Positions 1-49,019 of a stretch of DNA of 64,000 nucleotides are shown here, one piece after another. The stretch lies in the NCBI GenBank assembly GCA_034190875.2, contig CM067344.1, forward strand, positions 67,846,527 to 67,910,526. The letters are read 5' to 3'. The position numbers and the translations under genes were made by a program. The DNA is from Urechis unicinctus. Its lineage: Eukaryota; Annelida; Polychaeta; Xenopneusta; Urechidae. The notes beneath the pieces are model-generated. The model saw only the letters and a list, made by a program, of their open reading frames with translations, was not told where the DNA came from and made no database searches. Numbering within the stretch: position 1 is the first letter of the stretch; each line of letters begins with the position of its first letter.

Positions 1-843
1 CTGTTTTATAGCAATCTATGCAAAAGTCTTAACTATCCGATGCCAATAATGTAGTATATCCTATACCATGATGAAAGATGCAAAACGTGAGGCTTGTCAA
101 TAAGTTGATGCTACAGGTATTAATTCATTAGCTGAAGGCTCAACCAAAACTAACGGAAAGCAAATAAGGGTAAGAGTATGCAATTTGTGCATTACTGAGA
201 TACCTGTGAGATCTTAAGTGGTATATGCACAAACGAAGCATTGTATACCTGCGGAGATGGGTGAGCGACATTATGAACAAAGCAGCCAAAAATATTAACT
301 ATTGGTGAGGAGTTATCCGGTGTCTCCATGCGTCTGACTGACCCTCTGCCGAGTGCCATCTAGTTTTATTGTGTGTCAATACTCGAGGTTAAATGGGTTC
401 CATGTTATAATGTTTGAATAATGTGGATCCTGGGGCAAATACATTGGTGCAAGAAAGCGCTAGTTCTTCCTAGAAAAATAAATGGAAATGGACGAATTGG
501 TCGACTACTGTCCGCAGGGCTTTGGTTCACCGTAGTTGAGACAAGGGTCGCTGCACTTCATTTGGTGATTGAACAATCCCCGATGAACAGACGGTGTAGA
601 AAAGTAAATTGGAATGCCAATCAAGCCAGGCTAAAGAGGAATTTCTTCATTGCATATTCATTGACACGTTTAAGTTGCTTTCAGAGGAACAATATTGCTG
701 TATTCCTATAAGGGTGAGTCTGATTGTTTGTACGACTACAACAATACGAATTGGCTAACTCTTAATGCACGAAAAAAATGCTAATTTCATACAGATGGCG
801 GGAATGCGCAACCCACCTGATAAAGATCTAATCTCAATCATAT
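1..843 (+). repeat. Diverged direct repeat, copy 1
   Basis: This segment aligns by eye, with many indels, to 58050-58862 in the same orientation. The best-conserved core is 300-540 against 58320-58560, where both copies share the stretch around the BamHI-like site GTGGATCCTG and the phrase GCCATCTAGTTTTATTGTG. The 96-codon open frame at 421-711 is not kept in the other copy, so I do not call a gene. The segment may extend left of the window. Confidence 0.75.
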
Positions 844-2828
844 ATATAATCTCAATTAGTCCAACCGCTCTACCGTCAGTATCTCTATTGTGTCAGCACC
901 AAACAGCGTTATAACTCATCCGAAAATCGTTGACTAATCATACACTGCAGGAGGTAAGATATATAAATCTTGCATGCATGCTCTATTATTAATCGAGAAT
1001 AACAGCCGGCATCAATTAATGGAATCTTATGCACATCAATAAGAAACAATCCGTCATTCAATTCCTGCATCCATCTTTACGTCAGCAGACATACTGTCGC
1101 TGAGACACCACTCCCTCGCTGGTGACCACAGACTCTACAGCTTAACTTTTGAAGCATCTTGAACGGTACAATTTATTGATATATAAAAGATGAACAAAGT
1201 TCCTCTAAAATCTCAAGTACGGTGTTCGTTGAGTAAAAGATAAGATACGGAACACATATCGCGGTTAGAAAAACTCTTCTTCTGATGATTATTACGTGTA
1301 CAGTGACTTTCATTGGTACAATTCTCATTAGTTTGCAAACTGCGCATTAAAATAATGCTTTACTGTATGAGTTGCTTCTGATTGATAAGTGTGGTATATT
1401 TGCTATGCCTTGACAATGTAGACAGATGACAACTTATCATCAATAGAATCAAATTCTGCACTAAGCTCCTGTTATGCAATTTGCGCTTAGGTAAAAGTAC
1501 ATAAGTCGGATGCAGATATCATACTCCGATGGCATGTAGGGAGTTTTACGAGATATATTAACCTAGTACACTACCTGATAAAGAACTCTGCGATGTGTAT
1601 AGTCTGTGATCTCCTGTTTTGTACTTAACGCCAATGCGCCATAAAAGAATAATTCCGTTCATAGACGTCTGCATAGATGTATGTGCTATTTGGACATAGC
1701 TACGAATGCTGACTTACATGCAGACAGCATATATGCTCAGCGGTAAGCTACAATTCAATATTACAACAATTTGGTCTATGCACGAGATTTGGATCTATAT
1801 TGAGCTACTCGATGAAATACAAACCCAACTATACTGCATCATAGAAAGAAAAGGATTATTTTGACCGTTACTAAGATTCGTGCCAGTATACATACCGATT
1901 GGTTAGAATAACGATATTCTTGACATTACATTTAAACAATTCTGAATACGGTTTAACCAAATGGTCAATTCCATTACACTGTCGAGTGGTTAGTAGTTCT
2001 GTAGCAAGTAATCATCAGTTCTATTGGTTGAAACACAATTCTTCCAGAAATTTGCAAAGAATTAGGCTGCAAGTCAGTATTTTGAAACCAATAAACGACG
2101 GCCGTTGTTGTTGTAAATTGCGGTATACTGCACAGAGATCAAATGTAAATCATCTTCGAACAACCAGTTGACCATAAGGCAATGTTAATGACGACATGTC
2201 ATTAACCCTAAGTGAAGTCAGCACCAAGACGTCGTGAATTATCGACGCTCAACTCAACCTATGCATACATATGGTCAACTCATGGGATCTCGCATATGTA
2301 ATATTCCAGCAAACGTACCAACAGTCCATACCATTCGCTAATCTGAAGATATGGCAGTAAATGTTGAAGCAATTTATATTATACCATATAGAAGACTGTG
2401 GTTCATTTGCATTGACCAATTCACTGTTTATGTCATTTCGCTGTTTCGACACCTGTCAAATACTATCAAATACTCTCTAGTTATTATTTTACTGTGCTGC
2501 TTGTCCCTTTTTCGTGTACTTAAAGCCGAAGTAAACTTTATTGATTGATATCTCGTCGAACATGGCTATTAGCTTTCTGATTAGTTTTCGCTGTTTAACA
2601 GTGGTATACATTTCCTTCGACAGAATACGAAAACCATACAACTTACAAATTACATAGGGGAAAATGTGGAGGGCTATCATTATTTAGAGCGCCAAATTGG
2701 CCGTATGATTATGCTTTTAACCAGCTTCTAGCTTTCATCTCATTAGAAAAAAGAGCACATCTATGTATCCATTGTTTAATTTCATCACTGTCATGTGCGA
2801 CCCAAATAGAGATAGCTCATTCAACAAA
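844..2828. other. No recognisable feature
   Basis: AT-rich sequence with only short chance frames of up to 90 codons. The frames at 2249-2680 lie beyond the last recognisable part of transposase relict C. They could be eroded element sequence, but I cannot match them to any part of the transposase or the ballast-domain gene. Confidence 0.5.
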
Positions 2829-4275
2829 AATGAAGTTGGTCAAATATACTATCATAATAATCGGCAAGCCTATGAATAGTTTCATGTAATTGATAGTGGT
2901 TGTGTGCCTAGCAGAAAACCATATGCACAATATCGCCCATCCGTGAGCATGGTCTTATTTTCCAGGCATGCCGCCTGAACAAGTGTATGTCATTGACAGC
3001 ATTGTTCCCTTTGTAGTTTTGTCACACTAACGGATCTGACTGCCACAAGTCTGACATATTCTGAGAAAAAAAGTCCAAGTTGTTGTCCAACACCAAATGC
3101 TTGGGCTGTAGAAGAACCGACAAAGTGCCTTTCCCTCCACCTTTCTTAAATCAGACTAACCCTTCACCATCAGACACACTGGAATCTCGCTCAGATGCCT
3201 GGCAGGTAGGATCATCAACATCAAGATCAATATCATCATAACAAACAAAACTGTCCACACTGGGTTTTAGCTTAGGAGTGTTGAACTGAACAAAGGGACA
3301 GGGGGCTCAATTCGTGCAGATGTACTACTTAGAGCGTAGTCATGTCCCTGTAGTGATAGATCTTCCCAATTCACACATGTGTCTTTGATCTTAACAGTTA
3401 TATTCACATAGCAATGATCGGATATTATGACATGTTCAGTCTTTATCCAGGCTATGCGTGAACCGATCTGGGGGGCAAAGTCATTCTCCTGTGGGACAGG
3501 GCAAGTGGTATCCATAACCAGGCTGGATTCATGATGCTCTTCATCAGGGGGTCGCGAATCCAGTAGGATTTCCTGTAAAAGCTGTAACCACAGGTCGAAG
3601 ATAGATTTAGTTCAAATGTGATTTAATTTCAATCAGGCTCACTTAACATTAACCACATTCTGGGACTACTCCTATCAGTGGACATCCACCATGATAACAC
3701 ACAAGATGTGTGCCAACAATTGAAAAGGTCTTAAAATATACAATATTCTTCAAGCCAGAAAAATAACCGATAAATTGCTTACAAGGAAATATCAAGAAAG
3801 CATAAATGGTATTACGTGATACTGATCTTAAAAGAAATTTATGGCTTTTTATATGGGGAATCATTTATATCAATCAAAAATAGAATATTTTAATATAATA
3901 ATAGAATATATAGAACCCTATCGCAAAATGTCCGACTTGGATATGTATAGTCTACTCGCCATTGCTAGGAAGTTTCCCGAAGAGCTTGGAAAATATAAAC
4001 ACTGTAGGGAATGCACTTTTCCTCCTTCAAGAATTTACACTTTGTCTCTTGACTTTCTTGAAATCTGTTGCGGCTTGCATATCGTGTTCAAAACAATCGG
4101 TGGTAAAGTGGTCAGTACAAACGCGGACATTATCGCTGTTCGGGGGATTTTGTCTTTTTAATTTCGATAACCACTAGAATCGAAGCTGGGCGTTTTTAGG
4201 CAACCCGAAGAAGCTAATTGCTCTCTTCAAATCTATACTATGGTTCTTGCACCCAAAAGCAATGCAACGCACCAT
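2829..4275 (-). pseudogene. Relict C: broken THAP-domain Kolobok transposase
   Basis: Read on the - strand from ATG 4275-4273, the first exon encodes a THAP zinc-finger DNA-binding domain. It has C4, C9, C53 and H56 (C2CH), a tryptophan after the first stop, and an AFPTVF motif at residues 88-93. It carries two in-frame stops: TAG at 4176-4174 and TGA at 4029-4027. A second exon probably starts after the acceptor at 3574-3573 and is open to 3267, followed by a frame change. Near 3112-3031 the reading PKHLVLDNNL followed by CQTCG matches the position of the Cys-rich motif of the intact transposase at 42615-45689. It continues to about 2829 through TAG and TAA stops. The catalytic residues are not found. 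What is seen is a THAP exon plus pre-catalytic fragments. Assignment to Kolobok is inferred from likeness to the intact copy. Confidence 0.75.
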
Positions 4276-5968
4276 ATTGCTGAGCGAAATTCAGAAAAAA
4301 CTACGACGACAGTTTATTGCTTTCTCGGCAAGCGCAGAGTAATCAGGAAAACAGCCAGACACGGAGCCTTGCGCGGTTGATCCAAATGCATCAACAAAAA
4401 TGCGCACCAACATGGCCGCGTACAGGGGATAACTTTCCCAAAGTCAATGTTTTATTTTAGCTAGACTATAGTGAAAAATCGGGTTTATTTAATTAGAACC
4501 GACTATTCTTCGATAGCTTTATCACATAATGCCAAATGATTATTCACTGGACTATCACTTTAATATAGTCAGTCATTCGGATAAGTCTAAAATTCATGGC
4601 ACGCTTGCATTTTTATCAAAACGATAACAACGTTCCCTCTTTACGAGACATCACGTTCATGGGCTAGAATTGGTATCAATCAATTGTTAGTCGTATTTCA
4701 ACGATATTTCACGACGAGCGATTTAGGCAGTCTGACAAAATAATTACCTCTTCACTCTATTATGCTACATCTATATATCGTTACAAAAATACTTTTGCTT
4801 GGCTAAATATGTATCTTACATCAAAAGAGCTTCCTGGACATTGATCAGTTTAGTGACTCACACACCACAGAGCAGAATACATGATTCTCTTTTGCTGTGC
4901 ATAGGTTTTAGATTTTTAACCACAGATAAATGCAACCATAGAAGGATAAGATGACTGAAAAATAATAGCGTGATTCTTGTTTTCTGACAGACTGGACGCT
5001 AGTGCACAATCGACAGAATCAAAACCATTTGCAATCGGTACCATCCTTCTTATTCTTAAATTGGACAGTTTATAACGCCTGGTGGGTGTCAACTATTTGT
5101 AAGTCGATTACATTTTTAGTTTCACTGGCCGGCACTGGTGGCTTTTTTGTTGAGTTATGCCAATTCTTATAAAACGAACAAAATTGCCAATATTGCTAAC
5201 GAACACCATGATGGTGAATTCAGGGGGAGCGTAGTGCGCGTCACCAAATAATAGTCGGAAATGCTCTGTATACATGAGGTTCAAATTTAGATTCACTGCA
5301 AGATGCTTAGTGCTCTGGCAGTGTATGACACACCCCATATCAACGACTGACCAAATCATTCAATCGGATTTACGCTGAGTTCAAGACGTCATTGAATCAT
5401 GCCACTAAAATCGAGCCTTTAAACATCTATGAAGAATATTTAATAAAACAATGACATCAACGTACGTAAATCGAAACTAGAATCTACTCCAATCCCTCAA
5501 GAATATTGTGTAATCGGTGCGATCGAAAATTACTTGACAGTTATATGATAGCCTTGCTCGAGTTATCTGTGAAGATCACCCAACGGTGGGCTATGACAGA
5601 ATTTACTTCACGGTGTAATAACTATGTGAATAATGACACTACAGCATGAACACGCATTGCGTTCCCAGTAGGTCATCAGTTTAGGCCACAGTAAATTTTG
5701 ATATAGGTAAGTTATCGCTGCGTGTTTCCAAATGACCGGAAAATGTTGTAGACCTCACGAATGCCTTTCCCACGAGGTGCGCATGTGGTAATAGTAACAG
5801 CTCGTTTACGATCTCTGTCAGTCAGTCGGCTTTCCCATTGCAGGAAAATAAATAGAATAACTGATGATACATCCCATTATAAAGTAAAACACGGCATATG
5901 TGCTGTTGAACATGATGAAACACATGGATATAGATAAACCTACACATACATACACAGCAACACACAAC
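4276..5968. other. Upstream part of relict C, then unrecognised sequence
   Basis: The first 200 bases are probably the promoter side of relict C. A TTAA at 4487-4490 followed inward on the - strand by an A/T-rich stretch ending in CGATTTTT could be its eroded end. No partner end was found on the left, so the boundary is a guess. From about 4500 to 5968 I see nothing I can name. Confidence 0.35.
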
Positions 5969-12058: not shown

Positions 12059-12078
12059 AGGTCAACTACAAAGATTTT
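12059..12078 (+). repeat. Left terminal inverted repeat of element A
   Basis: Reads AGGTCAACTACAAAGATTTT. The reverse complement of the right end reads AGGTCAACTTCAACGATTTT, with two mismatches. Confidence 0.85.
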
Positions 12079-12241
12079 TTTTATTCCATTTTTCAAAAGT
12101 TCTATGTTTTAAAAGGGTATCGTAACCAAAATAAGGTGACTGCGCGCTTTTTTTCTTTTAGAAAAATGATTTTTAAATGTACATTTTCCACGTCGAATCT
12201 GACAAGATACCGCTCGGTAAAATTCGTGAATTTCCGGACAG

Positions 12242-12249
12242 TGACGTCA
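12242..12249. promoter_or_regulatory. Full CRE/ATF site upstream of transposase A
   Basis: The palindrome TGACGTCA lies about 110 bp before the transposase start codon. The same octamer lies in the opposite promoter of this element (15482) and in element B (46773). CREB/ATF binding is known for this octamer; use by the transposon is inferred. Confidence 0.5.
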
Positions 12250-12358
12250 TTCAGGTTGTTCGCGAATATTCCTCGCCATCTTCAGCCTTCACGGTTGGTT
12301 GACAGCGTGTGACTTACTCGTCTTTCTTCACGGTCTGGTGCGTTTCTTGTTGTGGATT

Positions 12359-14379
12359 ATGCCTTATTGTTGTGCGTTTGGTTGTCGGAACAATGAGAAG
12401 TCAGGCGTGAGTTTTTTTCTGTTTCCAAAAGACAGCAAAATGCGCCGCATATGGGTGTCGAAAGTCAAACGTAAACACTGGAGTCCTACACTCACGACGG
12501 TTCTATGTTCTGATCATTTCGAGAATGGTGCTTATGATACTGACCCAGAGCTGCTCAAAAGTCTAGGATTTCGTAAAAAACCTAGGCTCCGAAAAGAGGC
12601 CATGCCAACTCTCTTTAGCCACGTTGGAGTTGATGACAGTCAAAGTAAGCGACGGAGTGCCTCGGAGAAAAGGCAGCGACAACAGGTGAGATCTGTTGGC
12701 TTGAACCTTTAGGCTAGTCCTGCTATGTTGACGTATACTTATTTAGATGTTAATGAATTTATCACCAAGTTGCCAGTATATCAATCTAGCTGTTTCTTGT
12801 CATGCAGGTAGTAAATGAAATGGTATTGGCAGCTGAGCAGAAACATAAATCAAGTGACAGTGGTGAACCACAGACAGGTTTCACACCCAAGCACTGCCGA
12901 CCTAGGCGAAGGAACTTCGCTTCTGACAGCATCCACGTTGTGTGCTACACCAGGGGCGAGTGCCTTGCCGTCTGCAGAACATGAAGCTTGCTCTCACTTG
13001 TCATTTGGGGTGCAGGCAAATGTTTCCGTGAGTGTCTCAAGGCAACTGCATTATTATATTTGATGAAATGCATTGGCAGGGATAACTTCTGTTGAATGTA
13101 TCCATGTGTCTTTTCAGAGTCAATTTGTAAACATTTACATCCTGTAAGGGTATGATGAATGAAATTGTAGCATACTTATTGTATTGATACCACAGATGGC
13201 TGACAAGTCCCTGCAGACACAGAGTTCCTTCTTTCCTGGAATAAAGAAATATTCCAGAGGTACCCAAGTTAGCCCATCTCAGCACTGCATCGGGACACAG
13301 TGCAATTTGCTGATCCAAATGCAGGTCTGGTCAGAGCCAAGTGGCTCTCTGTCACTAGGCATGTCGTCAATGAGCACGCGGGGCATGGGGATCTGTACCC
13401 AGAATGTGAGCATGCACTACTAGAGGACAGGAAGTGGATACTGAAGGGTCAGTGTTAGTTTTTAATCATATAAGTTTACATAGAAATATTTACTTCAGTT
13501 GTAGTGTAATTAAATGAGTCATAAAGTTAAAATCCATGTCCTTGTGGTACTACTTTACCAAAGAAATGTAATCTGTATTGATATATGTGTTAACCATAAA
13601 TAGGATCAATAGGATGGCTTTCCCCATCAGAGCAGACATCAAGCCTAGAATCGTATCACAAAGTGGTCACATTCTTCGCACCAAAGAGTGTTCACTATCC
13701 CTATGCCACCATGGAGGCCAGGTAATACCAATGAAATTCGGTTGTGTATATTTGTTGTATGGAAGTTTAGCACATTTGTATACTGGCAGCTGTAATGTTC
13801 TTTGTATAATTATGTGCTCAAGTTTCAATTCTTACTTAGCAATATGTTATCAACCTGCTATATATATATATATCCAGATTGCTCCTAGCAGTAATTCACT
13901 TCAATGAAAACTCGAACAGAGCTCAAGCCATCACTGAAGGAGGTCAGTCACAATGGAGTGTGTCTTATCCCAAAGCCAGACAGGGAGACCCAGTTGTCAA
14001 GCCGGTCAAAGTACCAATTACTTTTGGTGTGTAGGTGCATTAATCTAAAATGAAACACATGTTATTTTGACATTTATTACCGGAACCTAAATAAGTTTCA
14101 TATGCACAAACATTGTAACCCTATTCAAATGGGCATATTTTATAACTAACTTGTTTTATGACTATCATAAAATATGAATATCATTGATTTCCTTCAGACT
14201 ATGTACATCAGTTCATTGCTGAGGTGCTTGATCTCAGGCAAAAATACCCAAGCTACAGACTTGCTGATGTCCTTGCAGAGGAAAGGAATCTTCCACCTCC
14301 TATTGCCTCCCAGTACGCGAAACCTGCAAAGGATCTTCTCGTAGGTGCTCACAGGTGTAGATTTAACCTGACCAAGTAA
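12359..14379 (+). pseudogene. Transposase relict A: THAP exon plus C-terminus, core deleted
   Basis: Proposed exons are 12359-12685, 12808-13027, 13196-13447, 13604-13721, 13878-14026 and 14198-14379, all GT-AG. Exon 1 gives a clean THAP domain: C4 or C5, C9, C50, H53, W32 and AMPTLF at 81-86. In the exon 1 frame, exon 2 stops at 12982-12984. The following linker reads on in the +1 frame into exon 3 (GTQVSPSQ, GTQCN). Near 13290-13310 the linker passes abruptly into the region matching the KWLS exon of transposase B, one frame off. Everything between is absent, including the first Cys cluster, GGD, DRHP and DIWH motifs. From there to the TAA the reading stays open and the splice phases (1, 2, 1) equal those of B. 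The LESYH glutamate and HFNEN motif remain. The start codon is the one beside the first zinc ligand. A 168-residue THAP-only product is possible. Confidence 0.8.
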
Positions 14380-15380
14380 TCTTCCACTCCTGCCAGCACT
14401 TTTCTGTTTCTTTTGCCCAGTCTGTGCCATATCCATAATGTAAACTGGCGGTAGGCTAGATACCTGAATTATCTGAAGCAATATGTCAATAAGTTGTCTA
14501 TGGTTTTGAAATAAGTTGCATAGTTAAAAAAACAATTGTCATTTGTCAACCATTCCCTCACTTTGTAATTGTAAGCTCTGCCTCTGGATTTCATGTTAAT
14601 GGTTTTATTTATTATTTGGCTATGTGAAATATATTGTAGTTTATCAATATGAACACTGAATGTTTTACACAGCTGGATTGATGTTCCCTTAGTAATAAAT
14701 ATGATTGTTCAACCTCAAACCGTCCTTTTTGGTAGCAATAATGGCTAACTTACTCATTGTAGAGACCTCATCTCCAACAGGTCCATTCATTTGAATAGAT
14801 TCAAATTTGGAAGCTTCCAGCACATTTTATTCAGGCAGTTTGCCAGGAATCTTGGCTGCTTGGTGATGCATGTCCATTCCTCTGTTATAGCCATCACTCT
14901 CTCCAAACCTCTGATGCACACTCTGGCTTCGTCCATTGGGATGCAGTGCTGACTGAATATAACAGGAAAATACTTTATATACTGCATGTAATCATCTGTC
15001 AAAAATGTTTAATGTGCTGACGGTACAATGGCAAAGCTACATTCACTAGCCAAGTTCTATCTGTTGTAATAGTTACATCTGTCAACATACCATCCTCAAC
15101 TTACAGAATGTGTAAATCTATTGGGTAATTGATACTAAAGATTATTTTTTACCAGTTAACGTAGTTCAATAAAGCTGGGGAAGGGTATTCTTAAACTCAC
15201 CATTCGTCGAAATCTTTTGTGGATTCTTCATCCGAAGCGAGTTAGAGCTCCCGGTGTCATTTCGAAGTGTGACTTGGATTTTTCAACTCCCGTCCGTATT
15301 GTCTCAAATAAATAGTCATGGACATAATTTGCCCCAATTTTATGCTATGGGGCCTCGTTATTTTCATCAGAAGACGACAT
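14349..15380 (-). pseudogene. Ballast-domain (P2X7-tail-like) relict of element A
   Basis: Read on the - strand. Exon 1 runs from ATG 15380 to a donor at 15200-15199. It has an in-frame TAG and a frame change, but ends in an acidic run before the same split codon (TG, GTGAGT) seen in the intact gene. Exon 2 starts at 14952 and encodes CQHCIPM, then RVC, ITKQPRF and NCLN in the spacing of the intact protein at 45679-46726, ending at a TGA at 14789-14787. A third exon from the acceptor at 14457-14456 encodes AYRQF, a Trp-rich helix and LGKRNRKV, then TGA at 14351-14349. The last exon lies antisense to the transposase terminal exon. The order and motifs are seen directly. The frame breaks show it is no longer a full gene. 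Confidence 0.7.
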
Positions 15381-15481
15381 GGCTTCATTTAATAACAGTG
15401 TAATACTAAAATCCAAACAATCGCTTTTCGCTTCGCTCGCTCGATCGCTGTCAAATTCTTTCTGAGGCCTCGCAGCAGGAA

Positions 15482-15489
15482 TGACGTCA
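15482..15489. promoter_or_regulatory. Full CRE/ATF site upstream of ballast relict A
   Basis: TGACGTCA about 100 bp before the - strand ATG at 15380, close to a CTAGCGGCC stretch. It mirrors the site in the opposite promoter of the element. Confidence 0.5.
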
Positions 15490-15675
15490 CGCAACCTGCC
15501 CCTAGCGGCCAACTGAGGCAAAATGGCATCGAGAAGATGGCTTCGTATTTTCTTCCGAGTGGAACCTTATCGGTGGATTTTTAGTAGTTATGCATAGCGG
15601 TGCAATGAATTATGAGTACCCGTTGGTTAATGAGTTATTAATCTTCATTTTGAAACACAAAATAAAGAAATGATG

Positions 15676-15695
15676 AAAATCGTTGAAGTTGACCT
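15676..15695 (-). repeat. Right terminal inverted repeat of element A
   Basis: Inverted partner of 12059-12078, matching at 18 of 20 positions, immediately followed by TTAA. Confidence 0.85.
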
Positions 15696-38815: not shown

Positions 38816-39245
38816 ATTCAGGATGTGAGAGTTACGTGTCACCCTCATATTCCGGACCGTATACTAAATTTACTTTGCATGACATAGAAGAAGAGTATAA
38901 GGCCTTATTTGTAGATGCTTGTTGCCATAAGAAAAACGATGGACAAAGGGTGGATGATTTTGTTTGAAGCTGCCTCTCCTCTGTAATGGCATGTTTTTCT
39001 CAGATGGCACATAGCTGTATATTGCATCTGATATGTAAAAGTTCAAACATGATTTAAAACCATCACGTTAGACTAACCATCGACAAAAGTCACTTCGGAC
39101 ACTTAATAAACGAGTATACTGTCGGCTTAACTCTCCCTGTCTGGAGTAGCGCACTATCGGGTCATTTCAATATTTATCTCTATGACAACAAGCAGTAACC
39201 AACTATTTCAGTTGCTTTTCGTATGCATAGAATTAGAACATATTC
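38816..39245 (+). repeat. Repeat copy with the unoccupied insertion site of element B
   Basis: This block aligns with the two flanks of element B: its left part with 42060-42313 and its right part (39139-39240) with 46968-47070. At the junction it has GAGTATACTGTCGGC, then one TTAA at 39127-39130, then CTCTCCC. The occupied copy has GAGTATACTGTCAGT, TTAA, element, TTAA, CTTTCCC. It therefore shows the site without the transposon. A related fragment starts near 39877 (ATTCCGGACCGTATAC is shared with 38850). Confidence 0.85.
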
Positions 39246-40470
39246 ATAACTAGTTACAAGAACAGAGAGGCCAGTTCTGTGCGTCAATCAGACACGTTCA
39301 CGTCTGGCATTTAAATCTTATTTCCAATCCTGTTTCCGGAACACAGAATTCCCACTGATTGGTCTCAGACATTAAAGCGCCACGCCCTATACAAATGGTA
39401 ATCTGTCATATGAATGACAGATTGTGACAGAATGATTGGGATTTACATGATATAAAACCCTCCCTCGTGTCACTGAATACTGCCGTTTATTTAAAAAGGC
39501 CACCTGAGAGGATATTTGATGGTCGTCACTCGGGGGAGCATCGGTTATGATACATCGATTGCATGCACGAATTAGCAGGTATTAATTTCTCGACACACAT
39601 TTATGCACAGGATATCAAGCTGTCAGCAAACATTTCAAGGGAAATATGAACGACAAAACAGTGGAAATATGAAGCATGTTCACTGAATGAGCCAGCGCAC
39701 CATGCGAGTGCATATAGCAGCGTCAACTATTTACCCTAAGATCACCCGGCATCGATTTGAACCATGTGTATATAAGCAGTCTCGACTGGCATAGAATTAT
39801 CAGTAGAAGGTCAGTTTGAATGGAACCCGAAGTGCTCATTTCTGTGTTTGGCTACAGGGGTATAGCTTAATAGAGACGACCGCATATTCCGGACCGTATA
39901 CGAAATTTTTTTTACCTTGCATGACATTGACCTTTCGCCATGCTCCGCCCACCTTAGTTACTGTTGCTATGTGGAGACAAGCTACAGCGGAAAATGTCGA
40001 CTTGCATGTATTTAGATAGGAGTTTTGTGAAAGTTTGAGAGGCAGTCGTGAATTAAATAAGTGGTGTCGTACAATAAAAACCAGGCAGATATTTATAACA
40101 AACTATGCTTAAGTGGTGAAAGGTAATTGAAGACCATATTAAACCGTAGCATAATGCGATTTCGGCGATTTTTTCGAGGCCGTGTAGGAACTTCAAGAAG
40201 CTGGTCCAAGCCGCACACGCGGGCACTGCTTCGCAACCAGTCAGAATCGAAATACTAAGGTGTGTTTGTCACAGTAAATATCTTGCATGAGCTCCTCAAC
40301 TTACCAAGTAAATAATGAAAAAAGATCTATTCAAACAAACTTTCTTTTCTAATACACATCTAAGTAGCATCATGTACAACCAAGCACGCGCTGCAACGAA
40401 AGAAGACGCAGCATCCTTCGGCGGGGGCCACCAGGGGCGAGGAATCGGTTATGTGATTTATCTCGCCGCG
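39246..40470. other. Unassigned; includes probable 3' flank of the LINE
   Basis: The part nearest 40470 (about 40300-40470) is GC-richer and probably the 3' untranslated end of the LINE read on the - strand. A 10-bp-arm palindrome (AATCTGTCAT and ATGACAGATT around ATGA) lies near 39400. Nothing else is recognised. Confidence 0.35.
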
Positions 40471-42313: not shown

Positions 42314-42317
42314 TTAA
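42314..42317. repeat. Left TTAA target-site duplication of element B
   Basis: TTAA immediately before the left terminal repeat. The unoccupied site has one TTAA at the equivalent position (39127-39130). Confidence 0.92.
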
Positions 42318-42332
42318 AGTGCCTATGACACC
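42318..42332 (+). repeat. Left terminal inverted repeat of element B
   Basis: AGTGCCTATGACACC, perfectly inverted at 46949-46963. Weaker A/T-rich similarity continues inward (AAAATGTGATTTTT against AAATTTTCATGATAATTTTT). Confidence 0.95.
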
Positions 42333-42614
42333 TAAAATGTGATTTTTGAGTATAAACTAAACAAATCGATGCGGATCGAATGGTGTTGGAGTTTTTGGCC
42401 TCCGATGAATAATAAAAGAGATATTAAACGTTCTTTGGAGCGAAGCGGCATTTCGTGCGTGAGCCGAGGTCAACCGGAAATGACGCATATAGGGGGTCCC
42501 AGTTTCAGCAGCCCAAGTCAGCTTCGATAGATGCGCTGGCGCTGTCAGAGCCTGAGTTTCTTTGCCTACCATAAAACCCACGTGAATTTATATCATGTTT
42601 AGTCTGGATCAGTC

Positions 42615-45600
42615 ATGCCAAAAAGCTGCGTGGCCGCGAATTGTTCGAACTTTTCTTCGGAAAGCGTTCGATTATACAGTTTTCCTCGGGAGGAGAAGTT
42701 GCGCAAGCAATGGATATCGCAAGTGCGGCGTACAAGGGCAGATTGGCCGGGTCCGACAACCCACTCGCGTTTGTGTAGCGAGCATTTTGGACCGGAATGT
42801 TTTGACCAGGCACTTGCAGTGAGAGAATCTCTCGGATTTGGGTACAACTGTTCCCGAAATATTCTCCCAACTGCTGTTCCTACCATATTCAAGAGAGGTT
42901 GCACGGAATCGCCACCAGTCAGAAAGTCTAAGGCAGTGGAGAAAAGGGAGCACCAAAAGGTGAGCTGACATATTGCCAAAATCTCTTAGATGTTTACTTT
43001 TTCCATAGTTTTGTTCTATAAACAAGGACTTTGTTCTAATTATCAGGCTGTGGAGACATTGTTGTTGGACTCACCTCTCCAGGAAAAAGAAAATGACTGT
43101 GGTCTTGCTCTGGTAAAGGATGCAAGCACCTCTGCAAGTATACCTCGCGCTTGCAGGACAGTGGGCACCCTATTTAAACCAAAATCCAGGGAAGCAGGTG
43201 ACTTCAGTGGAATTTCTCTTCTGTGTTCTATCACATATAAATTATGCATGATAATTTATGATGCTTTATGGCCTTTTTCTGATATATGATTAACAGTAGC
43301 AACGTGTTGTTAAAAGCTGTGCAGACTCATGTGAGCACCACAGTCACAACATCATCTCAGACCCATGAAACATCCTTCCCATGGTGGGATGAGATGGAGA
43401 ATGAGTGCAATGAACACGGGGAGAGAATGCACCAGGACACAGATCCTGACTACATCCCCTCAGACATAGAAGATGATGTGGACATCAATGACGAGAGGCC
43501 TTTGATTGAAAATGATGAAACAGATTCTTTGGACATTATTGAGGAAAGAAAGTATATAGTTTTTTGGTCTTCACTGCAGACTCTATTTGCTCTTTGTGTG
43601 TGCAGATTTTGCGGTGCCACTGGGTTAGCTGCATCCAACCGGGAGGTTGGCACATTAGTAGCTGTCACCTTGAGATGCACCAGCTGTACTAAATCTGTTG
43701 TCTGGAATAGCCAGCCCTATGTCGGTAAAATTCCAGCAGGAAACTTGCTGCTCTCAGCGGGAATCCTCTACAGCGGTGCTCTCATTTCCAAGACCATGAT
43801 GGTTCTAAAGCACATGGGTGTGGCTTGCTATTCTCTGCGTACATTCTTCCGCCACCAAAAACATATTTTAATCCAATCAGTCCGGCAAGTGTGGCAGGAG
43901 CGTCAACAATGGTTGTTTGCAGCCCTTCAGGCAGAAAACCGGGGACTTGTTCTAGGGGGTGACGGACGCGCAGACAGTCCAGGACACAGTGCCAAGTATG
44001 GGACATACACTTTGATGGAGATGGAAGCAATGGCTGTAATAGATGTAGAACTTGTACAGGTACCTCCTTTCATATGTTGGTTCTATATCTTTTATTTGCA
44101 AATGGTATAAAATGTGTAGGTGGCTCAACTAAAGGCTATCAATCGTACCAAGGTACTTGTTATCACATTTTTTCTGTAGAGTAATCAATGTGGTGGGAGC
44201 TACCACATGGAAAAGGCCGGACTCGTGCTAGGGTTGCAGAAACTAGAAGAAAACTACTTAGATGTTGAGACGCTCATAACGGACCGCCACCCGCAAATTG
44301 CTAAGTTTATCCAAGAGGAGCACCCAGGCATCACTCATCAATTTGACATTTGGCATGTTGCTAAGGGTAAATATTTCAAATTGTATTTTTGTAAAATGAT
44401 AATGAACTGTGCAATGCTATTACTTCACCCATGCTCCTACATATTTCAGGCATCAAAAAGAAATTGAAGGCAGTGGCCAGAGGTAAAGATCTAGCAGATA
44501 TTCAAGCGTGGATACCAAGTATTGTGAACCACCTGTACTGGAGTGTAGTATCAAGCCCCCCTGGAAATGGACAGCTGGTGTTGGACAAGTGGCTCTCAAT
44601 CCTTGATCACATTCAAAATATTCATTCTGGGTTTGGTGGTCTGTTCCAGTCCTGTGTTCATGGACCTTTGACTGGTCGTGAGAGACGCAAAAGGTGGATC
44701 AAGCCAGGTGATACAATATATCATTTTAGAGTTCAGACTAAAAAGACCACAAGTTCCTTAAATTTCCTTGATACACAAAAAAAAAATCTTGCAGTTAAAT
44801 TGCTCTTTACATCCTTAGATACGAGGTGTGCCACAGAATTGGAAAAAATTATCACCAACAAGAGATTGTGCAAGGACATCAAGAGACTATCAGGCAATGC
44901 CCAGACCTCCTACATAGAGGCTTTCCACAGCCTTCTGATCCAGTTTGCTCCAAAAACCTATGCTTTCAGTTACCCTGGTCTACTTTGCCGGTAAATCTTT
45001 CAACTATCCCAGTCTGCTTAGCTTAAAGTTGGAACTAGTTAGATTTTACCCTTCTTTCAAATGTAGGATTGTTGTTGACAAGTGGATCCATAAACAAAAA
45101 CAAAGTGGAATAAACAAGCCGTTTAATTTCATGAAGTATCTTTCCTCACGTCATTCATTCTAGTCCTGAATAAAGTTAATTTACTGCTGAATCCAACTTG
45201 TCACAAAACATCCAATAAATCAAAAATGAAAAGCACAAACTTATCCTATTTCAAACTGATAGAAAGGTTCATAAATTATTTCAGATCAATCATTGCAACT
45301 ATGCATTTCAATGAAAATGCTGGACGACAACAAAGAATAACAGCACAGGGTGAGGACATGTACAGCCTCCACTACCCCAAACACAAGGGAGGAGGTCACA
45401 CAGTGAGGAAAGTGCTGAATGATCCAACTTATGGTAGGGATTGTTTCTAAATTTCACTTTTATGTGAAAATTATAATCTGTAATCTCAAATGAACAACTA
45501 ACACATATATACAATACAGGCTATGTAGAAGATCTTTTGGCAATGACAGTCACCATATGCAAGACCAGTGACATAAATGATGAGGAGATGGAAGCACTGG

Positions 45601-45689
45601 AGATCCCACCCAATCTCAACTCCATCTTCGAGATCCCAGAAAAACACCAAGCAGTTGATCAGTTCCGCTCACGCTTCTCTAAGTGCTAG
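42615..45689 (+). CDS. THAP-domain Kolobok transposase, intact, 8 exons
   Basis: Exons are 42615-42959, 43047-43197, 43317-44059, 44180-44366, 44450-44707, 44819-44990, 45285-45433 and 45520-45689. All introns are GT-AG (83-294 bp), giving 724 residues. The enzyme should bind the element ends and catalyse cut-and-paste transposition in the nucleus. Residues 1-92 form a THAP zinc finger (C5, C10, W33, C54, H57, AVPTIF at 87-92). An acidic linker follows. A Cys-rich motif (C259, C261, C264, C286, C289) precedes an RNase-H-like core: GGDGRAD (D381), DRHPQ (D448), FDIWH (D469, H472) and YIEAFH (E595). The candidate catalytic acids are D381, D469 and E595, inferred from conservation. HFNEN follows near 630. 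The start lies next to the first zinc ligand. The exon 2-3 junction is least sure: the acceptor at 43316 keeps the frame, while a better-looking one at 43324 needs another donor. AATAAA lies at 45887. Confidence 0.9.
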
Positions 45690-46726
45690 TTTCATATCCC
45701 ACATAATTGTTTGACTCCTCTGGAAATGTTTTCCGTATGACTGAAGTTACACAGGATGGTATAGGTATGCGATTGTTCTTGCCAAGATAATGGTAGCACC
45801 ACCGGATAAACTGCCTGTATCCAGTGTAACGCTTCCAGCTGTAACACACAACCATACACAAACCCTTAAACATCTTTACAGTGCTGAATAAATATGGTAT
45901 TTTAACCCATACATTGATTTGATGATTGAGTCACAAAAATAGTGTTATCCTGGTATAAACTGTATTAATAATTCAGTCTGAATTGAAAACGTCATTCATT
46001 TGAGTAAAAATGACCCAGTAGTTTGTGGATTTTTTCCCAACATAAATTTATAATTTGGTGTTTGTTGTCTGTCAATACTTACTTGTTTCCCTTGTATGGA
46101 CCATGATCCTGCTTGTACATATCTTCATTAAGACATACAGCATTAAAATTTGGATTCTGCGTCACACATTTAATTTCTGGTAGATTTTCTATTTTAATCA
46201 TCACTTTCTCCTGCTCCACACAGCAGACACTTTCCCTGACAGTTGGCATGGTTAAGCAGCCTCCACATTGGCACCTGAAACCAGGGTTTCAAAAACCTAT
46301 CAAATACATACCAAACTCTGTCTAAGACATAGTCTAAGATTTTTCGCTAAGTTCGTTGGCGACTACAAACCACATTGAATAACACCAAGAAAAACGAAAA
46401 CAAATGATAAAGGTATTCTTCATTTATAATATAAAATCAAAAGAGAAAATAGTTTCGTGCAGTGATTACAATTCCATTAGGACTCACCAATCAATGTTTT
46501 GAAGACGGTTCATGTTCGGATTATCGCTTCTCGGAACACGTGAATCAGTCCTGTCACTGTCAGATTCGCTGGCGCTGTTTTCGGACAGATATGGTTCGAA
46601 TCTGTACGGCACAATACCAGCTACATCCTCTGGATTTGATTGCTCAAACATTTGAGGCTCTTCAACCCAAAACTCCATCGTCAAACCGTCCAACTCAGAT
46701 ACATCGCTCGCCGAAACATTCGCCAT
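45679..46726 (-). CDS. P2X7-ballast-domain-like protein of element B
   Basis: Three exons on the - strand: 46726-46488, 46274-46083 and 45838-45679, GT-AG introns, both junctions in phase 2, 196 residues. Residues 1-79 are acidic and Ser-rich with GIVPYRFEP at 37-45. A Cys-rich domain follows: W80, C81, C83, C86, MPT at 89-91, C97, C98, C116, C127. It ends with YRQFIRWC (151-158), LGKNNR, IPIPSC (C173), IRKTFP and YVGY. This order of motifs is that of the cytoplasmic ballast domain of P2X7 receptors and related stand-alone metazoan proteins. In P2X7 that domain binds zinc through cysteines. No P2X channel part or membrane segment is present. The promoter side holds a CRE site. The stop overlaps the transposase 3' end by 11 bp. 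A role in transposition, such as DNA or RNA binding or regulation, is inferred from its place only. Confidence 0.85.
45887..45892 (+). terminator. Polyadenylation signal for transposase B
   Basis: AATAAA 198 bp after the transposase stop codon, the nearest on the + strand. It lies opposite an intron of the antisense gene. Confidence 0.5.
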
Positions 46727-46772
46727 TGTTTACTGTGAAAACTGCGGACCTGTCAGTGACGACTCCCCCAAG

Positions 46773-46780
46773 TGACGTCA
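46773..46780. promoter_or_regulatory. Full CRE/ATF site upstream of ballast gene B
   Basis: TGACGTCA about 47 bp before the - strand start codon at 46726, in a locally GC-rich promoter that also has ATGGCGGCGGG. The same octamer is found at the equivalent end of element A. Confidence 0.55.
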
Positions 46781-46948
46781 CGGGGTGCTGGGCCGAAAAT
46801 TTGTAAAATGGCGGCGGGTGCCGAAAAATCGACTTTATATTTCAATTTACATTAGGTTCGGGTGACTTGTTCGGAAATTGAACCACAAAAACAGAGTAAA
46901 TGCAACTTTGTCTTTCATTTGGTTAAATAAAAATTATCATGAAAATTT

Positions 46949-46963
46949 GGTGTCATAGGCACT
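46949..46963 (-). repeat. Right terminal inverted repeat of element B
   Basis: GGTGTCATAGGCACT, exact inverse of 42318-42332, followed directly by TTAA. Confidence 0.95.
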
Positions 46964-46967
46964 TTAA
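46964..46967. repeat. Right TTAA target-site duplication of element B
   Basis: Second TTAA, absent as a separate copy in the unoccupied paralogue. Confidence 0.92.
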
Positions 46968-47979: not shown

Positions 47980-48340
47980 CTGTGGGTCTTCAATGTATAT
48001 TACAGCTATCACTGAGTGTGGTTGATGACCGCTGCTTATTTCTAGATGACTGATAGCCGTTCAAGGCATGGTGCCCTTTGGCATCCATATAAGAGCACCA
48101 AAAGCTTATTGCCAATGCCAATGTCAATGCATATCAGCAGTAATGGATTTTATTGCCGTTAAACTATGTTATTATGTTTATTTCATATTAAGATTATACT
48201 CGATCAATATCCAATATTCAATTAGTAGCCGATGTACAAAGTTGTCTACAACCCAAGCACGCAGAAAGCAGCAATCGCATATAACAGAAATCGCCATTTG
48301 GACTAAAATGACGCAACGTGATTATCATTGAATAGTATTG
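47980..48340 (+). repeat. Tandem unit, part A, copy 1
   Basis: A 361-bp block repeated without indels at 48659-49019 with about four substitutions, so a very recent duplication. The shared 87-codon frame is kept only because so little has changed. Confidence 0.95.
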
Positions 48341-48658: not shown

Positions 48659-49019
48659 CTGTGGGTCTTCAATGTATATTACAGCTATCACTGAGTGTGG
48701 TTGATGACCGCTGCTTATTTCTAGATGACTGATAGCCGTTCAAGGCATGGTGCCCTTTGGCGTCCAAATAAGAGCACCAAAAGCTTATTGCCAATGCCAA
48801 TGTCAATGCATATCAGCAGTAATGGATTTTATTGCCGTTAAACTATGTTATTATGTTTATTTCATATTAAGATTATCCTCGATCAATATCCAATATTCAA
48901 TTAGTAGCCGATGTACAAAGTTGTCTACAACCCAAACACGCAGAAAGCAGCAATCGCATATAACAGAAATCGCCATTTGGACTAAAATGACGCAACGTGA
49001 TTATCATTGAATAGTATTG
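48659..49019 (+). repeat. Tandem unit, part A, copy 2
   Basis: Second copy of 47980-48340. The sequence after it does not continue into another B part. Confidence 0.95.

Follow-up and report, generated by a model that had tools for sequence, protein, structure and literature searches.

Between positions 42318 and 46963 of the window, the 64,000-nucleotide stretch of Urechis unicinctus contig CM067344.1 analysed here, lies a Kolobok DNA transposon of 4,646 bp in which two convergent genes, one for a THAP-domain transposase and one for the short protein KolX, are enclosed by inverted ends (Table 1). The outermost 18 bp, composed of TTAA and 14 bp of the element (42314-42331 and 46950-46967), are inverted copies of each other without a mismatch; with up to three mismatches allowed, this motif occurs at two places in the window, against a mean of 0.07 in shuffled sequences. 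The genes are arranged tail-to-tail with 3' ends that overlap by 11 bp (45679-45689), and the splicing of both, with eight and three exons respectively, was deduced from reading frame and splice sites.

Table 1. Features of the Kolobok element, of a second, decayed element and of the empty site, in window coordinates; gene structures are predictions.
Feature	Position	Strand	Basis
Kolobok element, probable Kol0 type, termini AG...CT	42318..46963	+	TIR/TTAA ends, full-length copies in genome
TTAA target-site duplication, left	42314..42317	.	end search
TTAA target-site duplication, right	46964..46967	.	end search
Terminal inverted repeat (TIR), left	42318..42335	+	with TTAA: 22 nt, 95% complementary
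Terminal inverted repeat (TIR), right	46946..46963	-	pairs with left TIR
Transposase gene, 8 exons, 724 aa, open	42615..45689	+	exon model; splicing inferred
Transposase exons	42615-42959, 43047-43197, 43317-44059, 44180-44366, 44450-44707, 44819-44990, 45285-45433, 45520-45689	+	
KolX exon 1, acidic N-terminal part	46488..46726	-	exon model
KolX exon 2, WCxCGxC, CC and CVT cysteines	46083..46274	-	exon model, alignment
KolX exon 3, RYTGYRQF, PSC, IRKTFP	45679..45838	-	exon model, alignment
Second, decayed Kol0-like element, different family	12059..15695	+	ends match at 12/14 positions beside TTAA
THAP exon of decayed element	12368-12688	+	Pfam E 4e-18
Transposase remnants of decayed element	13318-14028	+	E 9.8e-12
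Decayed KolX of second element	14942-14367	-	pieces at E 1.9e-4 and 0.03
Single TTAA of empty-site paralogue	39127..39130	.	flank alignment

The original prediction had described a three-exon minus-strand gene for a P2X7 ballast-domain protein carried inside a Kolobok transposon, and its exons, junctions (GTGAGT/TTTCAG and GTAAGT/TTACAG) and reading frame proved exact, with a stop-free product of 196 aa. This product matches Pfam P2RX7_C with 64.0 bits (cut-off 23.5, E 2.3e-17) and no other family in the Pfam scan, the P2X channel domain being absent. A single-sequence search of the PDB (E 0.001) returned four distinct matches, every one of them P2X purinoceptor 7, the best of which (6u9v, E 1.9e-5) aligns KolX residues 77-193 with residues 473-592 of P2X7. 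All seven zinc cysteines of P2X7, under a residue numbering that we take to be the correct one, are present in a small alignment, and the ballast-domain identity of the protein was in this way borne out. What the gene model had missed is that exon 2 of the window copy has lost 21 nt in frame, which makes its product seven residues shorter than those of all 14 other open copies among the 37 fetched from the genome. The deletion takes out most of VLETAYYA, a position at which a hydrophobic stretch is also found in P2X7 and in the more distant ballast gene L050 discussed below, and the protein of this particular copy may be impaired by the loss. As to the zinc cysteines elsewhere in the genome, two are missing from copy L025, in which KolX is open, and C572 is missing from the ballast gene L052.

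The transposase begins with a THAP domain (residues 5-92, Pfam E 4.8e-15) and carries, in this order, the motifs GGDGR (379), ITDRH (446), DIWH (469) and IEAFH (594), and the region that holds these motifs is probably the DDE core. Pfam MULE matches the protein with E 9.5e-4 and 20 bits, under its cut-off of 27.6, and HIQNIHSGFGGLFQSCVH at residue 529, in the interval between DxxH and the last E where Kolobok transposases have a zinc-finger motif, resembles by eye the H2CH motif named in PMC6004289. Kolobok transposons are characterized in PMC9587614 and PMC6004289, as far as the sections drawn on here go, by TTAA target sites, 5'-RR/YY-3' termini and a DDE transposase with a C/DxxH motif. The element in the window ends in AG...CT and has DIWH as DxxH between the second D and the E, the catalytic residues having been assigned from motifs, and it encodes a KolX with seven cysteines and a predicted ballast fold, as is distinctive for the Kol0 group. 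As regards the KolobokP group, the longest direct repeat between 38000 and 52000 measures 300 nt and falls outside the element, compared with the long terminal direct repeats of about 450 or 660 bp of that group, and a His-Me nuclease was sought in the two Pfam-scanned proteins without any nuclease match at E 0.001. The element very probably is, by these sequence features, a cut-and-paste Kolobok transposon of the Kol0 lineage with its usual pair of genes, a THAP-DDE transposase and KolX, and the enclosure of the ballast gene within Kolobok ends was as originally predicted. The 300-bp direct repeat near the element (47980-48279 and 48659-48958) is 99% identical between its two units, which are 679 bp apart. 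A THAP-like fragment on the minus strand (4266-4078) is 32% identical to the N-terminus of the transposase (E 4.7e-6).

That the ballast gene moves together with the transposon, as had been proposed for this locus, is supported by the copies of the element in its own genome (1.19 Gb). Among the best 35 of 1,426 candidates, a search with the whole element gave 55 matched pieces, of which 11, the window included, cover positions 1-4646 in one piece with 98-100% identity. Exact 13-mer TIRs, each bordered externally by TTAA, were found at the two ends of 18 of 37 copies fetched via a match to KolX exon 1, a sample that over-represents KolX-bearing copies because it was chosen in this way. The exact 19-mer of TTAA and TIR occurs 325 times genome-wide (151 + 174), compared with zero for the same sequence read backwards. 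In the window itself, 38861-39281 aligns with the joined flanks of the element at 85% identity over 338 ungapped columns and has a single TTAA (39127-39130); it is a paralogue of the insertion site that lacks the element.

Intact Kolobok copies that lack the gene had been named in the original prediction as the finding that would make its presence here accidental. All of the 11 full-length matches include the gene region (35 of 1,426 candidates scored), and shorter pairs of ends exist as well. At least 18 pairs of forward and reverse TIRs less than 6 kb apart are found among the matches listed, eight of them about full length (4.5-5.9 kb) and ten shortened to about 1.1-3.3 kb; at least three of these ten (C1:46184643, C5:1047824 and C5:19284714) contain a match to KolX exon 1, and some of the shortened copies may well be devoid of KolX. 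A tandem array on C16 (about 50.19-50.23 Mb; L046 and L047) holds at least 11 matches to KolX exon 1, mostly spaced by 3.1-3.4 kb, in units that hold portions of the element's KolX side. A candidate gene fusion on C14 (L048), with a KolX exon match within an apparent open frame of 1737 aa, was dismissed, the frame being a run of N.

KolX is open from the initial Met to the stop in 15 of 38 copies (the 37 fetched and the window), and the transposase is open under the exon model of the window in three of 38, one of them with an 18-nt deletion; the two counts are not comparable, since this model is wrong for subfamily B, in which transposase exon 2 contains about 100 extra bases with splice-like ends. 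In L028, L029, L030, L034 and L042, exon 2 is longer than in the window copy by about 60-100 bases, which have GT...AG-like ends, and a possible explanation is an intron that is missing from subfamily A.

Selective constraint was estimated between nine copies of subfamily A and seven of subfamily B, selected for length among the 38. Pairwise dN/dS averaged 0.26 in KolX and 0.42 in the transposase, and per-site majority values were 0.22 (15.5 synonymous and 13.5 nonsynonymous changes) and 0.40. The binomial P lies between 7e-5 and 3e-4 for KolX and is 7e-4 for the transposase, whose tally is unreliable for subfamily B on account of the approximately 100 intron-like bases in exon 2. Differences in KolX are about twice as frequent at codon position 3 as at positions 1 and 2. 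The dS of KolX (0.131), however, exceeds the divergence of its introns (0.076 and 0.082), and against these introns a dN of 0.035 gives a ratio of about 0.44, weaker than 0.22-0.26, while the transposase, with a dN of 0.023 against an intron divergence of 0.050, arrives at about 0.46. In our reading, KolX is probably constrained about as strongly as the transposase. Other KolX ratios range widely, with 0.41 among copies of A, 0.81 among those of B and 0.29 to 1.0 when four older single copies serve as reference, values to be expected where few changes or dead copies prevail. The identification of the element and its genes keeps its confidence after the weaker estimate, because it rests mainly on identity and layout. 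Along the element, A-B divergence is uneven, the left end and the KolX side differing more than the transposase, perhaps through exchange between copies.

A reading of the KolX frame as a product of chance or as a pseudogene could invoke the window copy, which is short of seven residues that 14 other intact copies possess. The match to P2RX7_C at E 2.3e-17, the open frame in 15 of 38 copies and the constraint just described speak against it, so that its probability is virtually nil and, for the KolX family, it can be regarded as refuted.

The same layout is found a second time in the window, in a decayed element of a different family (12059-15695) with KolX and transposase in convergent arrangement as in 42318-46963. 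Beyond these two, screening the genome with Pfam P2RX7_C gave at least 150 matches (150 of 2,591 candidates scored), all of those listed above the cut-off of the family, a number that is not a count of genes because some genes give two pieces and the split-exon KolX of the window is not among them. The top matches are single-exon genes, of which those fetched share about 30-33% identity with the KolX of the window. Five ballast loci beyond the family (L049-L053) were retrieved with their surroundings. At L050 and L051, 99% alike over the ballast domain, a convergent Kolobok transposase lies downstream (E 3e-24 and 6e-21), and at L049 a downstream match is weak (E 3e-6). L052, which belongs to the L050 family, has no transposase match within 5.6 kb, and neither has the outer ballast ORF of L053 (387-1019) in the 5 kb fetched, of which about 1.3 kb lie past an insertion. 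This insertion, into the 3' end of the outer ORF, is a 2.7-kb element (1001-3701) with perfect 14-bp TIRs beside TTAA and a decayed ballast gene inside, such that one ballast gene is nested in another. In sum, a transposase accompanies three of the five loci, one of them weakly, and at a fourth, transposon ends surround one of two genes; the suggestion that stand-alone ballast genes sit near transposases held at L050, L051 and weakly at L049, and found no support in the fetched stretches at L052 or at the outer ORF of L053. TIRs were sought in the fetched DNA of L049-L052 and none were found, and the ends may fall outside these stretches, as they start some 0.8-1 kb ahead of the ballast ORF. 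The ballast ORF of L049 (831-1370) matches P2X7 with E 4.2e-18, better than the KolX of the window, and carries the R546-H547 pair. Side matches of ballast and transposase ORFs to GAAD, Penaeidin, PH_fung_RdRP, Stereocilin, Mutator and DUF7573 all remained under their cut-offs and were discarded.

The single-exon ballast ORFs of other types, together with L052 and the outer ORF of L053 without a transposase in the fetched stretch, are what one would expect if a host ballast gene had been picked up as a passenger by one transposon family, in which it plays no part in transposition. A passenger would hardly recur tail-to-tail with a transposase at L050 and L051, where KolX is only about 31% identical, and again in the decayed element, nor would it be constrained between subfamilies, and KolX is, in the portions of Kojima and Bao (2022; PMC9587614) used here, the second protein of the Kol0 lineage generally; we consider this reading highly improbable.

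Neither the link between KolX and the ballast domain nor the idea of a capture by P2X7, whose possible novelty had been raised for this locus, is new, since both were published by Kojima and Bao (2022; PMC9587614), who reported similarity of KolX to P2X7 residues 476-595, a ballast fold with seven cysteines, and who proposed a fusion between KolX and a P2X4-like gene as the origin of P2X7, and domestication of a KolX as that of zebrafish Nanor; the function of KolX is left unassigned in the sections of that paper drawn on here. In the genome of U. unicinctus, 15 exon matches to the P2X domain (all 25 candidates scored) form about four clusters on contig C15, and none of the ballast matches listed lies within 0.9 Mb of them, so that, among these matches, a P2X7-like fusion is not seen. 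The KolX of the window is 30-33% identical to three P2X7 tails, and the other ballast types of the genome are 29-38% identical. In a small unrooted FastTree phylogeny, P2X7 stands apart from all sampled ballast types, and in the unrooted iqtree consensus it groups with L049/L053 at 48%.

The opposite direction, in which an old host domain of NANOR or P2X7 type was captured by Kolobok and transposons were not its source, can draw on these trees, which do not place P2X7, and on the linkage of stand-alone zinc-coordinating ZCD genes to two markers across invertebrates, read as ancestral synteny by Rump et al. (2020; PMC7016195, as far as drawn on here). Yet ballast lineages within this single genome are as distant from one another (30-40% identity) as from P2X7 (29-38%), the at least 150 matches are spread genome-wide with a transposase downstream at three of five loci (one weak), and the P2X genes have no ballast domain nearby among the matches listed. 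We regard this direction as unlikely. In the parts of PMC7016195 drawn on here, the R546-H547 pair is recorded outside P2X7 in deuterostomes only.

The sequence establishes the anatomy, the insertion at TTAA, the copies throughout the genome, the conserved zinc cysteines and the constraint on KolX. By analogy with other cut-and-paste elements, the THAP domain of the transposase would bind the element ends and its DDE core would cut and join DNA, and KolX might help transposition through pairing of the ends, stability of the complex or regulation. For KolX as such an accessory factor the chances appear about even, and this role would account for the retention of KolX by the elements. A more specific proposal departs from the P element, whose transposase requires GTP for end pairing (PMC7776569, in the part used), and from the GTP/GDP- and zinc-binding sites described for the P2X7 ballast in the abstract of PMC9859053: KolX could be the separate-protein counterpart of the P element GTP module and, dependent on guanine nucleotide, help the THAP transposase to pair and position its ends. 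If this were true, the P2X7 ballast would have kept its GTP/GDP site as a remnant of the biochemistry of transposition. A simple conservation of that site is opposed by the small alignment, in which R546, Y550 and R578 are retained in the KolX of the window and H547, R574 and K583 are replaced by Y, T and E, such that, of five GDP residues given in Rump et al. (2020; PMC7016195, which in the part used also defines the cysteine clusters), only R546 and R578 are kept. We consider the proposal a long shot; an earlier formulation of it was not found in a literature search that covered mostly titles and abstract openings and some passages.

What the present analysis contributes to the published link are near-identical TTAA-flanked copies, an empty site, a test of constraint on KolX, a second, decayed element, a view of how many and how varied the ballast genes of a single genome are and a function of KolX that can be put to the test, and it independently confirms, in a 1.19-Gb genome, the P2X7 ballast fold as a transposon gene. 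It also suggests, from one genome, that some animal genes annotated as 'P2X purinoreceptor 7 intracellular domain' are Kolobok transposons and not receptors or immune genes.

Compared with known systems, the element is closest to Kol0 transposons of the Kolobok-1_XT type, with which it shares TTAA duplication, 5'-RR/YY-3' termini, a DDE transposase with DxxH and a KolX with predicted ballast fold, and from which no difference in kind was found with respect to the features given in the consulted sections of PMC9587614. The P2X7 ballast (473-592, PDB 6u9v) is homologous to KolX and has the seven zinc cysteines, R546, Y550 and R578 in common with it, whereas the KolX of the window has no channel domain and differs at H547, R574 and K583. 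NANOR and other stand-alone ZCD proteins are likewise short soluble proteins with the ZCD/ballast domain at the end, but in the portions of PMC7016195 at hand they number one or a few (<10) per species without large expansion, as opposed to at least 150 matches, some genes maybe counted twice, in this genome. The P element and THAP9 also combine a THAP domain with a DDE-type transposase. To our knowledge, the P element has no KolX gene. Unlike in the arrangement proposed here, its GTP-binding domain is located, according to the part of PMC7776569 used, within the transposase chain itself.
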